DNA of 38,811 nucleotides, taken from NCBI GenBank assembly GCA_024103175.1, contig JAGFJE010000619.1:1-38811 (forward strand), written 5' to 3'. Shown in pieces: positions 697 to 28,890 of this stretch; position 1 is the first letter of the stretch; every line of letters begins with the position of its first letter. Under the pieces are notes generated by a model. That model had not been told where the DNA came from. It did not search any database and was given only the letters and a program-made list of their open reading frames with translations. Source of the DNA: Phaeodactylibacter sp. GTDB lineage: Bacteria; Bacteroidota; Bacteroidia; Chitinophagales; Saprospiraceae. Made by a program: the position numbers and the translations under genes.

Positions 697-1191
697 TATA
701 ATTATGTTTTGGTTACTTTTCCTGTAAAAATAGTTGAATTAAGCCAGGAATTCAGTGAAGCCGATCACTTTGGGAGCGTAGGCTGGCGGGGTAGGCACAC
801 CGTAAGGTTTGGCGAGGATATCAAATACCTGGAGAGGCCTGTGGCGACGCCTGCTTACAGGGTATATTGATTATTGACGCGAAAGTCGCCTTGCGCCCCC
901 AGTCTGGAAACAGAGCCGGAAACCAGGTAGGCGGGCAATGCTACGCTGGCCGTCACCCTCAAGCACGAGCCGGATAAAGGCGCGGATAACTCTTGCATTA
1001 CAGGGGAGACGGACCTGCAGGCGGAGTTTGATGTGGTGGTGCAGTGATAAGGTAACTCGGGCGGCGATGGAAGGCCGCCGCCCGGATTTATATGTTTAGC
1101 GGCCCACTGTCTACGCGGACAAAAAGGCTTTGCCCGGTAAAAATTGTGTACCTTAGGCATTACTTTTTAGAACGTTCAAAGACAGTATAGT
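697..1191. other. Gene-poor stretch with decayed fragments
   Basis: No intact gene is seen. Three short coding-like pieces occur. (a) Minus strand about 739-840 reads as a C-terminal-looking tail with PYGVPTPPAYAPK then GFTEFLA and a stop; family not recognised. (b) Minus strand about 855-893 encodes QGDFRVNNQYTL and a stop. This closely matches the GDFLVNDQYTLEVGG segment of the DUF4143-type ATPase remnant at 5912-6322, so it is probably a scrap of a second copy. (c) Plus strand 931-1047 encodes about 38 residues ending in LQAEFDVVVQ, with an in-frame stop at 928-930; it resembles the C-terminal strands of a secreted beta-sandwich protein, not identified. The 101-codon minus frame spanning 855-1160 is mostly non-coding in character. 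Confidence 0.45.
1129..1156 (+). promoter_or_regulatory. Possible promoter of the NTPase-TPR operon
   Basis: TTTG at 1129-1132 and TACCTTAG at 1149-1156 are separated by 16 bp. This is one mismatch from the Bacteroidota -7 consensus TAnnTTTG, and the spacer is slightly short. It lies 36 bp before the ATG at 1192. Weak evidence. Confidence 0.3.
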
Positions 1192-2132
1192 ATGCCGTTT
1201 CATAAAGCTCATAACTTACCGGAAATCGATCAGGCCGTACGTTTCAATGACGCTATTGGGCCGGAGCATGCTTTTTATACTGAGTTTAGTGATTTGAGGG
1301 GCGACAAGGCATACTGGCCAACCTCATTGGTATCTTTGCCTCCCTGAAAGCAGGAGTGACTGGTAGTATGGAACGCAAAGAAACCGTCCGAAAGATCCTG
1401 CAGAATCGATTTGCAGACTTTGCCAATATTTTCAACCAGTACATCGAAGAAGTGAATATCGCCATCCGAGAAAATGGAGTTGGCCAGGAAGTATTGTTTA
1501 TTGTTGATGGCCTGGAGAAAACGATGTCCACTCAAACCCGATACAAGATAATTATCGAAGAAGCTGGTTATATTCAGCAGATTAAAGCCTATACTATCTT
1601 TACTTTGCCCATAGAGCTGATGAAAGAGCGGGCAACGCTTACCCGTTTTTCCAATCTGGAGATTTTTCCTTTTGTGAAATTATACGAGCGCGATGGCGAG
1701 GCTATAGGCCGGGCGTTCGAGCGGTTCTTAGAGTTCGTGTACAAGCGTATTGATGCGAGCCTTTTTGAAAGTGAGGAAGTCGTGCAAAAAGCAATACGAT
1801 ATGGTGGCGGCTCCCCACGGGAGTTGTTGAGGATATTAGAACTGGCCGCGTTCTATGCGGACGAGGAAAAAGGGGTTATTGAAATGAGCGCTTTGGATAA
1901 AGCTTTGCAGAGGTTGGCCAATCAAGCCGCTCAGCATTTGACGGAGGAAATGTTGGAAAAGTTAGAGGAAATCAACCGCGCCAACGAAAAAATGGAACCG
2001 GTATTCTTTGATACCATACTGGAAGAATTATTGGAAAAGAATCTGGTCATGGAATACAATACCGGCAATTATAAACGCCCGAATCCAGTGCTCGAGCTTT
2101 CTGACATTTATCAGCACAAAATAAAAACCTAA
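1192..2132 (+). pseudogene. STAND/AAA-like NTPase with internal deletion removing the P-loop
   Basis: The gene appears in two pieces. An N-terminal piece (ATG at 1192, stop at 1345-1347, 51 codons) reads FNDAIGPEHAFYTEFSDLRGD. A second frame, shifted relative to the first, is open from about 1302 with ILANLIGIFASLKAG and runs to the stop at 2132 (258 codons if the GTG at 1356 is used; first ATG 1368). The second part has LFIVDGLEKT, which looks like the Walker B strand and sensor region of P-loop ATPases, then TIFTLPIELM and a helical C-terminus. No GxxxxGK[ST] Walker A occurs in either piece. I infer that about 100 residues with the P-loop were deleted, with a frame change, at about 1300. 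The stop is 1 bp from the start of the TPR gene, implying an operon. The remaining frame might still be translated. Confidence 0.65.
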
Positions 2133-2133
2133 A

Positions 2134-3528
2134 ATGCCTTCACGCCAAACCAGCTTATCGGAGGAATTCAAGCTACTCTGGCGTGCTGTACGTGTAGAAC
2201 GCTCCCGCTTTATCATCGTGCAATACAATCATTATGATCTGGTGCGCCGGGTCAGTCAAGGGTTGTTAGAGCGCCACCCGGATCGCAAGCTACAACGTTT
2301 TGACCTTCAGGAAAGTATACCACAGGGCTTTCCACATAACTTGTTGCAGTATTCGAGTGGTTTTCTGCTATTGGAACACTTTGAGCGGTTATTCGATCCA
2401 GAATACGAATCAGAACGCATCGCACTGAATCAAAGGCGTGACGCCTTTTCAGCGAATGATGCGATCGTCATAGTTTTTCTGCCCACAGGCTCCGTTTACC
2501 TGCAAACTTTCGCTAAGCAATTGCCCGACCTGTATTCCGTGGTTAATCCCGTTATTCAACTGGAGCAGCCACTGGAAAAGCCGGAGAGGCCTTCCATCGA
2601 AGCTTTTGCCTATGATAGAGTAGATTATACCTCAAGGGAAGAGGCGGTAAAGGATCTGAATCGTACTCAAAATCGCCTTAATGAATTACCAGAGGGGTTT
2701 GAAAATGAGCGCCTGAGAGCTGCGCTGTACTTAGATCAGGGAAAGGCATATCGCTTTTTAGGCGAGTATGATAAGGCAGAAGAGGTGATGCAGCAAAGTT
2801 TATTCAGCAGCCGGGCCACAGGCGACCGCCAATTGGAAGGATTATCGCTCCATATAATAGGCGAAATCCATTTTGCCCAAGGTGACTATGATACTGCTTT
2901 ACAGTACCTACAACAATCACTGCAAATACGGAGGGAAATTGGAGACCGGCAGGGGGAGGGAGCAACTCTTAACAATATCAGCCAGGTTTATCATGCCATA
3001 AGAGACTACAGTACCGCTTTACAGTATCTGCAGCAAGCTTTAGGAATAGCAAAGGAAATCGGAGACCGTCGAGGTGAGGGAGCGGCGCTCAACAACATGA
3101 GCCAGATCTATATGATGCGGGATGAATATGCAGCCGCTTTGGAATATCTACAGCTATCATTACAGATTCAAAAAGAAATCGAAGACCGTCAGGGTGAGGG
3201 AGCAACCCTCAATAATATCGGCCGGATGTACACTGCTTTTGGCGATTATGACACTGCTTTACCATACCTGCAACAATCATTAACAATAAGGCAGGAAATT
3301 GGAGATATCAGCGGCATGGCAGTAACCTTACACAATTTGGGTACCCTTTACTTCGAGCAAGAGCATTTTGAGCTAGCTGTTTCGCCTATTTTCCATGCCT
3401 ATCGCATCTTCGGCCAAATCGGCTCACCCAATGCCGAAACATCTGTAGGCTACCTCAACGCTATTGCTAAAAAAATAGGCGCCGACAAAGTAAAAGCCAT
3501 CATTGCACAACTGGAGCAAAACGAATAA
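2134..3528 (+). CDS. TPR protein with N-terminal NTPase-partner-like domain
   Basis: 464 residues. Residues 1 to about 160 form a mixed alpha/beta domain (LWRAVRVERSRFIIVQYN, later AIVIVFLPTG) resembling a P-loop fold without a Walker A motif. Residues about 193-436 hold five to six 40-residue tetratricopeptide repeats of the LGN/Rapsyn-like kind, with consensus ATLNNIxQVY...GDYDTALQYLQ then EIGDRQGEG. Such repeats bind peptides or partner proteins. No enzymatic motif and no signal peptide are visible, so the protein is probably cytosolic. It starts 1 bp after the NTPase remnant and ends 8 bp before the next gene, so the three were most likely made together. STAND-type NTPases and TPR arrays often form signalling or defence assemblies, but that role here is inference. 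Confidence 0.8.
   Translation: MPSRQTSLSEEFKLLWRAVRVERSRFIIVQYNHYDLVRRVSQGLLERHPDRKLQRFDLQESIPQGFPHNLLQYSSGFLLLEHFERLFDPEYESERIALNQRRDAFSANDAIVIVFLPTGSVYLQTFAKQLPDLYSVVNPVIQLEQPLEKPERPSIEAFAYDRVDYTSREEAVKDLNRTQNRLNELPEGFENERLRAALYLDQGKAYRFLGEYDKAEEVMQQSLFSSRATGDRQLEGLSLHIIGEIHFAQGDYDTALQYLQQSLQIRREIGDRQGEGATLNNISQVYHAIRDYSTALQYLQQALGIAKEIGDRRGEGAALNNMSQIYMMRDEYAAALEYLQLSLQIQKEIEDRQGEGATLNNIGRMYTAFGDYDTALPYLQQSLTIRQEIGDISGMAVTLHNLGTLYFEQEHFELAVSPIFHAYRIFGQIGSPNAETSVGYLNAIAKKIGADKVKAIIAQLEQNE
2842..3441 (+). repeat. Tandem 120-bp coding repeats (TPR array)
   Basis: Five consecutive 120-bp units encode the 40-residue TPRs at residues 237-436 of the TPR protein. The units are similar at nucleotide level; for example the GACCG(T/G)C(A/G)(G/A)GG(T/G)GAGGGAGC segment recurs in the second to fourth units. 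The array could therefore vary in copy number by slippage or recombination. Confidence 0.75.
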
Positions 3529-25340: not shown

Positions 25341-26207
25341 CTAGCCGAGGTATGATTTCAGGGCGTTGCGGTTGTAGGATTTCCGCAGGCGGCGGATGGC
25401 GCGCTCTTTGATCTGCCGCACGCGCTCCCGCGTCAGGCCGTACAGCTCGCCAATTTCTTCAAGTGTCAGGGATTTTTGGCCGTTCAGGCCGTAATAGGAA
25501 GACAGGACTTCGACTTCCCGGGGAGACAGTATGGAAAGGCCTTGTTGTACTTCCTCCTTCAGGGATTGTTCCATGAGGCTTCCGTCGGGGCTCATGCCTT
25601 CGTCGCTGGAGATGACATCCAGCATGGTGGAATCGCCGTCTTCCCCACTGAGCGGGGCGTCTACCGACACATGGCGGCCATTGCCTTTCAGCATATTGGC
25701 CACTTCCTTCGGCGTCATATCCAGCAATTCGGCCAGTTCCTCATGGGTTGGCTCTCTTTCGAACTCCTGAACGAAAGACAGGAAGGCTTCATTCACCTTG
25801 TTATACGAACCTACTTTATTGAGTGGTAAGCGGACGATGCGGGAGTATTCTACGATAGCCTGCAGGATAGACTGCCGGATCCACCAGACGGCATAGGAAA
25901 TGAATTTGAAACCCTTGGTCTCATCGAACCGGCGGGCGGCCTTCATCAGGCCTACATTACCTTCGTTGATCAGGTCGCTCAGCGATAAACCCTGGTTTTG
26001 GTATTGCTTGGCAACAGAGACGACAAAACGCAAGTTGGACTTGGTAAGCTTGTCGAGCGCCTCCTGGTCGCCCTCGCGGATACGCTTGGCAAGTGACGCC
26101 TCCTCTTCCGGGGTCAACATCGGAATTTTGCCGATATCGTTGAGGTACTTGTCCAGAGCAAGGCTTTCTCTGGCCGTGATTTTGTTAGTAATCTTTAGTT
26201 GACGCAT
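25341..26207 (-). CDS. rpoD: Primary (housekeeping) RNA polymerase sigma factor
   Basis: 288 residues, the short form typical for Bacteroidota group 1 sigma factors (no long 1.1 or non-conserved region). Region 1.2 begins at about residue 17 ([21 protein letters not shown]). Region 2 has [30 protein letters not shown] and region 2.4 [10 protein letters not shown]. Region 3 follows. Region 4.2 ends with the helix-turn-helix [29 protein letters not shown]. It directs RNA polymerase to the TTTG/TAnnTTTG promoters seen elsewhere in the window. It starts at ATG 26207; upstream DNA is AT-rich, with no perfect consensus box. Confidence 0.96.
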
Positions 26208-26404: not shown

Positions 26405-26440
26405 CATAAAAAAACCCGGCTTGAAAGCAGCCAGGTTTTT
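26405..26440 (-). terminator. Bidirectional terminator, probably of pnp
   Basis: AAAACCCGGCT (26411-26421) and AGCCAGGTTTT (26429-26439) pair with one mismatch; on the minus strand the stem is followed by a run of T. It lies 213 bp beyond the pnp stop; the palindromic insertion at 26478-26590 occupies half of that distance. Confidence 0.8.
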
Positions 26441-26469
26441 ATATTGTCCTATATTTCAGGGTTTCATTG

Positions 26470-26598
26470 CTATTGGCGGCTACCATTCTAAGGTTGGACA
26501 GCCTCGTACATCGTACATGTCCGAGGGCAGCCTTTGGTTCATACATCGTACACGCCCCATGGCTTTCTGTCCAGCCTTAGACGGGTAGCCCTATTGGC
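26470..26598. mobile_element. MITE-like palindromic insertion with 8-bp target duplication
   Basis: The element is 26478-26590 (113 bp). Its 24-bp terminal inverted repeats are 26478-26501 (GGCTACCATTCTAAGGTTGG...) and 26567-26590, pairing at 21 of 24 positions. It is flanked on both sides by a perfect 8-bp direct repeat CTATTGGC (26470-26477 and 26591-26598), the mark of transposition. Inside are two ATACATCGTACA-like repeats (TACATCGTACATG and ATACATCGTACAC). There is no open frame, so it must be mobilised by a transposase elsewhere. It separates pnp from its terminator. Confidence 0.75.
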
Positions 26599-26652: not shown

Positions 26653-28890
26653 TTAATCTCTTCTCCGGTCATCGCGGCGCCCACCGCGGCGGCCTCCACG
26701 GCCCTCCCGGTCTCCATCACCTCTTTCTCTTCCGTCGCCGTCTTCCTCGCCTTTTCCGTTGCGTTGCGGCTTGGGCAGCAGGGATTTACGGGACAGGCGC
26801 AGTTTGCCGGTCTTTTTATCCACGCCGATCAACTGGACGCGCACCTCGTCTCCTTCCTTGAAGAAGTCTTCGACGCGTTCGATGCGGGAGTGGGAGATCT
26901 CGGAAACGTGCAGCAGGCCGCTTTTACCCATGAAGTCAACGAACACACCGTAGGGCATGACCGACTTGACCTTAGCGTCGTAGATATCCCCGACGGAAGG
27001 CGTAAAGGTAATGCGGCGGATGCGTTCCAGGGCCGCCTCGATGGAGGACTGGTCGCTGGCGGCGATATTGACGACGCCGGTGTCTCCCACCTCTTCAATG
27101 TTGATGATGGTGCCCGTCTCGCTTTGTATTTCCTGGATCACCTTACCACCCGGGCCGATCACGGCGCCGATGAAGCTCTTGTCGATGATGAGTTCGACGA
27201 TGCGCGGCGCGTGCGGTTTGAGTTCCGGGCGCGGCTCGGCGAGCACTTTCTTCATCTCATTCAGGATATGGAGCCGTCCTTTACGGGCCTGTTCCAGGGC
27301 CTGTTCCAGCATTTCGTAGGGCAGGCCATCGATCTTGATGTCCATCTGGCAAGCGGTGATGCCGTTCTCGGTGCCGGTGAGCTTGAAGTCCATGTCTCCC
27401 AAAGCATCTTCATCGCCGAGAATATCGGAAAGGATGACGGTATTCTTGCCATCGGATATCATGCCCATGGCGATACCGGATACCGGTGAGGAGATCTGTA
27501 TGCCTGCATCCATCAGCGCCAGAGAGCCGGCGCATACGGTGGCCATGGAAGAAGAACCGTTGGATTCCAGGATATCGGAAACGATGCGGATGGTATAAGG
27601 CGACTCTTTTGGCATGACCTGCCGGAGCGAACGGGCGGCCAGGTTGGCGTGCCCCACTTCACGGCGCCCCGGGCCGCGCTGCGGCTTGATTTCGCCGACC
27701 GAGAAAGCCGGGAAATTATAGTGAAGGATGAAATCGTCGAAGTATTGCCCGAGGGCGTTATCGATCATCATTTCATCCTGTTTGGTGCCCAGGGTCAGGG
27801 AAGTGAGCGACTGGGTTTCTCCGCGGGTAAAAACCGCCGAGCCGTGGGTAGAGGGCAGGTAGTCCACTTCACACCAGATGTCCCGGATCTCATCGAGTTT
27901 ACGCCCATCCAGGCGCACCTTTTCATTGAGCACCATATTGCGGATCACCTCCTTTTTGAGGTCGCCGAAGTACTCTTCCAGCATCTTACCGTGTTCTTCC
28001 ATCCACTCCTCTCCTTTCTGCTCGGTATAGGATTCGATCAGGCTGTCCTTTATCTCCGTAAAGCGGTCCTTGCGGGCTTGCTTGTCCAGGAAGCCTTTGG
28101 CCACTTCATAGATCTTGCCTTTGGCGAAGGCCTCGACTTCTTTTTTGAGCGCTTCGTCCTCTTCCACGGCTTCAACTTCGCGTTTTTTCAGGGCTTTTTC
28201 CCCGACCTTCTGCGCGAGTTCGAGCTGGGCTTTACACTGCACCTTGATGGCTTCGTGCCCCACCTGTATGGCTTTGACCAGGTCTTTTTCCGAGCACTCT
28301 TTGCCTTCCCCTTCCACCATCATGACATTGTCGAGGGTAGCGGCGACTATGATGTCCAGCTCGGCATCTTCCAGAGCGGACTTATTGGGGTTGACCACAA
28401 ATTCTCCGTCGATCAGCGCCACGCGCACTTCCGAGATCGGGCCGCCAAAGGGAATATCGGATACGGCCAGGGCGGCGGAGGTGGCCAGGGCGGCAAAGGC
28501 GTCCGGCGGCACATCTGCATCACCGGAGATGAGGTTGATGATCACCTGGGTTTCGTTCATATAGCCGTCGGGGAAGAGGGGGCGGATGGCCCGGTCTACC
28601 AGGCGGCAGATCAGCACTTCATAATCAGAGAGCTTGGCCTCTCTCCTGAAGAAATTGCCGGGGATGCGGCCGGCGGCGGCGAATTTTTCCTGGTAATCGA
28701 CGGATAGCGGGAAAAATGATTGGCCCTCTTTGGCTTCCTTTGCAGAAACTACGGAAGCAAAAAGCATGGTCTTACCCATGCGCACGACGACGGAGCCATC
28801 GGCCTGGGTGGCCAGCTTGCCCGTCTCTATGGTAACTGTTCTACCATCGGGTAAGTCAAAGGACGTTGTAATCGGAGTCTGTTGTCCCAT
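26653..28890 (-). CDS. pnp: Polynucleotide phosphorylase
   Basis: 745 residues, normal for PNPase. It degrades RNA 3' to 5' using phosphate and belongs to the RNA-decay machinery. Domains in order: a first RNase PH domain (residues about 15-145, with GRIPGNFFRREAKLSDYE), an alpha-helical linker, a second RNase PH domain (about 330-560, FTRGETQSLTSLTLG, GPGRREVGHANLA, SDILGDEDALGDMDFK), a KH domain (FIGAVIGPGGKVIQEIQSETG) and an S1 domain (YDAKVKSVMPYGVFVDFMGKSGLLHVSE). The tail is an Arg/Gly/Asp-rich low-complexity stretch (about 40 residues). Upstream lies rpsO, the usual partner, with a hairpin between them. Confidence 0.98.
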   Translation of the reverse strand: MGQQTPITTSFDLPDGRTVTIETGKLATQADGSVVVRMGKTMLFASVVSAKEAKEGQSFFPLSVDYQEKFAAAGRIPGNFFRREAKLSDYEVLICRLVDRAIRPLFPDGYMNETQVIINLISGDADVPPDAFAALATSAALAVSDIPFGGPISEVRVALIDGEFVVNPNKSALEDAELDIIVAATLDNVMMVEGEGKECSEKDLVKAIQVGHEAIKVQCKAQLELAQKVGEKALKKREVEAVEEDEALKKEVEAFAKGKIYEVAKGFLDKQARKDRFTEIKDSLIESYTEQKGEEWMEEHGKMLEEYFGDLKKEVIRNMVLNEKVRLDGRKLDEIRDIWCEVDYLPSTHGSAVFTRGETQSLTSLTLGTKQDEMMIDNALGQYFDDFILHYNFPAFSVGEIKPQRGPGRREVGHANLAARSLRQVMPKESPYTIRIVSDILESNGSSSMATVCAGSLALMDAGIQISSPVSGIAMGMISDGKNTVILSDILGDEDALGDMDFKLTGTENGITACQMDIKIDGLPYEMLEQALEQARKGRLHILNEMKKVLAEPRPELKPHAPRIVELIIDKSFIGAVIGPGGKVIQEIQSETGTIINIEEVGDTGVVNIAASDQSSIEAALERIRRITFTPSVGDIYDAKVKSVMPYGVFVDFMGKSGLLHVSEISHSRIERVEDFFKEGDEVRVQLIGVDKKTGKLRLSRKSLLPKPQRNGKGEEDGDGRERGDGDREGRGGRRGGRRDDRRRD

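Follow-up and report, generated by a model that had tools for sequence, protein, structure and literature searches.

The closest described counterparts of the element considered here are the bacterial MITEs Correia, ERIC, Chunjie, and BrickBuilt, which have been reviewed together as short, noncoding, high-copy elements that are bounded by inverted repeats, duplicate their target, lie in intergenic regions, and can be nested in one another (PMC10969869), all of which holds for the family described below. Among insertion sequences, the prokaryotic Mutator-like p-MULT 4 elements (ISMich2 and ISKra4 groups) make 8- or 9-bp target duplications and have a terminal G/C, and ISMich2 uses a -1 frameshift; p-MULT transposases have a D-D-E triad, a C/D(2)H motif 11 to 19 aa after the second aspartate (D2), and an insert of 99 to 138 aa between D2 and the glutamate (PMC3942029). 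DUF6399, the domain to which the ends of our element lead, has no function assigned in the Pfam and NCBI listings, and a search of 5.4 million papers returned no mention of it. Insertion sequences of the IS1595 family have 8-bp duplications and ends starting with GGC, and MITE derivatives of them are known.

The stretch that we analyzed (38,811 nucleotides of Phaeodactylibacter sp., contig JAGFJE010000619.1; hereafter, the window) contains a MITE, i.e., a short element without a transposase gene that has inverted repeats, a duplication of constant length, and many copies in its genome (Table 1). An earlier note, made from the sequence alone, had placed a 113-bp MITE with an 8-bp duplication between pnp and its terminator, and its coordinates proved exact: the element spans positions 26478 to 26590 (113 bp), and its 24-bp ends, described there as near-perfect terminal inverted repeats, are identical at 21 positions, with 3 mismatches. 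The octamer CTATTGGC occurs on the plus strand of the window only twice, in both cases flanking the element, and by an analytical estimate the probability of such an end pair with an exact 8-bp duplication arising by chance in the window is <1e-6. The element contains no open reading frame of at least 80 aa. As the pnp and sigma-factor frames flank it and both lie on the minus strand, it falls in the pnp 3' untranslated region; a hairpin followed by a U-run, the probable pnp terminator, lies downstream of it in the pnp transcript, in agreement with the position given by the note. This hairpin (at about 26408 to 26441) was missing from a simple terminator scan and was seen by folding.

Table 1. 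Features at and around the MITE in the window
Feature	Positions	Strand	Remark
Left 8-bp target-site duplication, CTATTGGC	26470..26477	.	Exact match to right copy
Left 24-bp terminal inverted repeat, GGCTACCATTCTAAGGTTGGACAG	26478..26501	+	End type also found in autonomous elements
Internal noncoding part, class A core, with two CGTACATCGTACA-like stretches	26502..26566	+	
Right 24-bp terminal inverted repeat, GGCTACCCGTCTAAGGCTGGACAG, read on minus strand	26567..26590	-	
Right 8-bp target-site duplication, CTATTGGC	26591..26598	.	Exact
pnp (polynucleotide phosphorylase)	26653..28890	-	745-aa ORF confirmed; name from earlier note
rpoD-type sigma factor gene, downstream	25341..26207	-	
Hairpin and U-run, probable intrinsic pnp terminator	26408..26441 (about)	-	12-bp stem, by folding

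The earlier note had proposed looking for further copies of the 24-bp end, and these make up a large family. A search for related places in the element's own genome (G000; a draft of 7.86 Mb in 790 contigs, which break at repeats) returned 148 candidates, 40 of which were scored. We delimited 61 elements, a count that includes two composite spans of serial insertions, so that slightly fewer are truly separate. Perfect 8-bp duplications, mostly different from one another and without a consensus, flank 53 of the 61, which bears out the transposition event claimed for the window copy. The copies are mostly intergenic, and their insertion sites are diverse. Unlike the MITEs reviewed previously, those of this genome fall into at least three classes with common ends, unrelated middles, and a nearly constant length of 113 to 115 bp, and their ends and 8-bp duplication match those of elements that encode a DUF6399 protein (see below). 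Class A, with a CGTACA-rich core, comprises 33 copies at least 75% identical to that in the window. Six class A copies at different sites are identical to the base, which points to recent movement; the window copy, with 85% identity to its nearest relatives, appears to be an older, isolated one.

Several sites can be read in their unoccupied state. (i) One class A copy sits inside a class B copy, and the duplication flanking it, CCTTAGAC, is part of the ordinary end sequence. (ii) A dispersed repeat, CCTGAAAATCAAAGG...TCGAAAGACACAGAAAAATGAACTAT, is intact at locus L002 and interrupted at L043 and L138, with the duplication TCGAAAGA. (iii) The sister genome G002 lacks the copy at L045, and its sequence aligns across the junction (GCCATTGG versus ACCAATAG). 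(iv) The sister genome G001 lacks the copy at L028, with collinear genes around the site. For the window copy itself, for which the earlier note had suggested comparison with an empty site in close relatives, no such element is present between pnp and the sigma gene in G001, G002, or G003, but the interval is too diverged for a base-by-base alignment of the site. MITEs have also inserted recurrently into a second dispersed repeat, CCTGAAAATCAAGGGG...CAGAAGACACAGAAAAATGAACTAT; this repeat is intact in L002 near position 1694 and carries insertions at the G000 loci L020, L027, L033, L035, L043, L047, and L138, with the duplication TCAGAAGA in five cases and TCGAAAGA in two.

The earlier note had also proposed a search for an insertion sequence whose ends match; such ends were found on DUF6399 elements in two related Bacteroidota genomes (G150 and G375) and in Crinalium. 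Scanning reference genomes with the consensus end recovered only Phaeodactylibacter sp. mag.14 and one uncultured Saprospiraceae genome (G005), in which two contigs break in a repeat behind the end and a reverse frame matches the C terminus of DUF6399 (E = 8.9e-6). Searches for DUF6399 gave matches in three of 398 genomes of the order and in none of 395 evenly drawn Bacteroidota genomes, a sample that does not show absence; none were found in viral contigs and phages. Complete DUF6399 elements of 1,670 bp (G150) and 1,689 bp (G375) are bounded on either side by near-identical 24-bp ends; as the former and the complete copy of the latter lack their left flank, their duplications are not directly readable. 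In G375, however, contig ends pair into two further copies with the duplications TGCCACAC and TACTTAAT. A 2,505-bp DUF6399 element on a plasmid of Crinalium epipsammum is bounded by perfect 24-bp ends (GGCTACCAATCTAAGGCGGGACAG), with the duplication CGTTTTCT, and a Thiodictyon plasmid carries one of 1,916 bp with different GGC ends and the duplication GTCCAACC; around two Acaryochloris homologs, no clear ends were found. The location of the DUF6399 gene between ends matching those of the MITEs suggests that its product is probably the transposase of these elements. The Crinalium element (plasmid pCRI9333.07; L203, positions 784 to 3288) additionally has a gene for a 150-aa hypothetical protein on the opposite strand. 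G375 has MITE classes of its own (L172 to L201; 113, 126, 136, and 137 bp), whose ends are the same and whose duplications are likewise of 8 bp.

In all of the proteins, the C-terminal part corresponds to Pfam DUF6399 (E = 1e-42 to 1e-66). The cyanobacterial and Thiodictyon homologs are encoded in single frames of 524 to 558 aa; in the Bacteroidota elements, two frames overlap at an identical sequence, CCTTTTTTTGAAGAAG, in which slippage by -1 on T TTT TTG would fuse them into a protein of about 520 aa. Five proteins from three phyla share an invariant acidic triad (DE[TS], SDxAxAL, and [VI]EGRNG) and, without exception, a DLFH motif; the D-D-E and D(2)H motifs are present in all five, the latter at D2+19 to D2+21. 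From these conserved residues, the DUF6399 protein is probably a DDE-type transposase. Its elements resemble p-MULT 4 in their 8-bp duplications, terminal G/C, predicted -1 frameshift as in ISMich2, and putative D-D-E triad with D(2)H some 20 residues past D2. In contrast, the distance from D2 to the glutamate (243 to 273 aa) is about twice the p-MULT insert of 99 to 138 aa (PMC3942029). Comparison of DUF6399 with four ISKra4 proteins in hhalign gave a nonsignificant probability of 0.6%, the aligned stretch pairing D1, D2, and D(2)H, and none of the NCBIfam models for ISKra4, ISLre2, and related families matched the DUF6399 proteins. Given the longer distance and the nonsignificant profile similarity, we regard DUF6399 as working like the p-MULTs and do not call it a member. 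Comparison with solved structures returned weak matches only, mostly to helix-turn-helix proteins.

We therefore consider it very likely that the window element is a nonautonomous MITE of a high-copy family that is moved in trans by a DUF6399 transposase and that its insertion at pnp was tolerated. An insertion sequence bounded by the same 24-bp ends would supply the DUF6399 transposase, which would act in trans on the MITE, binding the GGCTACC...TGGACAG ends and cutting the element out or copying it; joining to staggered cuts 8 bp apart would then yield the 8-bp duplication, and the copy behind pnp would be a tolerated intergenic insertion. Three parts of this scheme we infer from sequence comparison, namely, the role of DUF6399 as transposase, its DDE-type chemistry, and its mobilization of the MITEs in G000, the last in trans because no DUF6399 gene was found in that genome. 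Thus, the transposase family, which the earlier note had left as unknown, now has a strong candidate in DUF6399, but one whose gene was not found in G000 or in two MITE-carrying genomes of the same genus (a match in G002 with E = 0.07 is unconvincing). These assemblies are fragmented, so that a DUF6399 copy may have been missed; a different transposase may also be at work.

Other explanations differ either in the nature of the element or in the reason for its retention. That it is a structured RNA repeat of the REP/BOX type instead of a mobile element would agree with its being palindromic, short, mostly intergenic, and present in many copies; the duplications and unoccupied sites rule this out, and with the nested and serial insertions, the identical young copies, and an Rfam search of the element that gave no family above threshold, they leave the reading with a negligible probability. 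We also find it very improbable that the element was domesticated for regulation, i.e., retained behind pnp for the effect of its hairpin on mRNA stability or processing. In keeping with the earlier note, it can fold into a hairpin, and on the pnp strand the fold is very stable (-55.8 kcal/mol; z = -6.6); elsewhere, MITEs such as Correia and ERIC alter transcript stability via RNase III or RNase E (PMC10969869). However, the stability stems from the inverted repeats, which are required for transposition: when the internal sequence is compared with internal shuffles, the energy hardly changes (z = -0.6), which gives no sign of structure beyond that imposed by the ends. A selected RNA structure was accordingly rejected, as the internal part folds no better than when shuffled and Rfam offers no match. 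The diverse insertion sites of the family, the lack of the element at pnp in the sister genomes, and the terminator-like hairpin already present downstream also speak against domestication. The special effect on pnp mRNA stability that the earlier note had entertained is thus not borne out, and an adaptive role at pnp is unlikely.

With regard to the source of the transposase, the MITEs could instead be driven by an already named family, such as IS1595 or ISKra4, with the DUF6399 elements merely sharing their ends. The GGC-type ends of IS1595 and the absence of DUF6399 from the G000 assembly would fit this, as would a decayed IS1595-like element in G001 (L141, positions 1068 to 2060) with one end near its gene, GGCTAGCTGGAAAACTTTAGACA, partly similar to those of the MITEs. 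Yet that end is partial, whereas nearly the full 24-bp end is present on both sides of the DUF6399 elements from G150, G375, and Crinalium. A search for the IS1595 DDE domain (DDE_Tnp_IS1595, PF12762) came up empty in both G000 and G002, and its absence from G000 led to the rejection of IS1595 as the partner; the DUF6399 proteins do not match that family either. NCBIfam, moreover, places the DUF6399 proteins in no named IS family, although an ISKra4 protein from a cyanobacterial plasmid, used as a positive control, was recognized at E = 6e-82. We accordingly hold a named family to be an unlikely driver and retain DUF6399 as the preferred candidate.

On balance, we lean toward the broader proposal that the DUF6399 proteins are transposases of an undescribed IS family (one that may have an ISfinder name) distributed across Bacteroidota, Cyanobacteria, and Gammaproteobacteria and possibly an additional branch within the Mutator superfamily. 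It would be characterized by GGC ends, 8-bp duplications, D-D-E with a long insert, D(2)H, and, in the Bacteroidota branch, a programmed -1 frameshift, and it would have given rise to a burst of MITEs in Phaeodactylibacter-like genomes. As a MITE, the 113-bp element is of an ordinary kind; its ends are what lead to a testable function, that of a transposase, for DUF6399. If this is true, proteins with the domain should be annotated as belonging to mobile elements instead of as hypothetical proteins, and if the DUF6399 elements are the driver, they would account for a large repeat load in this environmental group of Bacteroidota. The 113-bp element with its defined ends offers a ready substrate for a transposition assay.

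Some MITEs of G000 depart from the simple arrangement seen in the window. Those of class B (L031 to L044 and others) contain 7-bp tandem units (TTCCGAC/TTCCGAT) in varying number, and some of them contain inserts such as TTTACTCCGTCAGTCGCTTCGCTCGTG. MITEs also occur in tandem, at L125 (contig C21, positions 1041 to 1287) and L039 (contig C91, positions 718 to 953). Such rows include two or more complete elements and a third end, with the octamer GCATCTCC between each, and two elements separated by TTAGAAAA within an outer duplication, TGAGAAAA; they may reflect either repeated insertion at one octamer or insertion adjoining an existing end.
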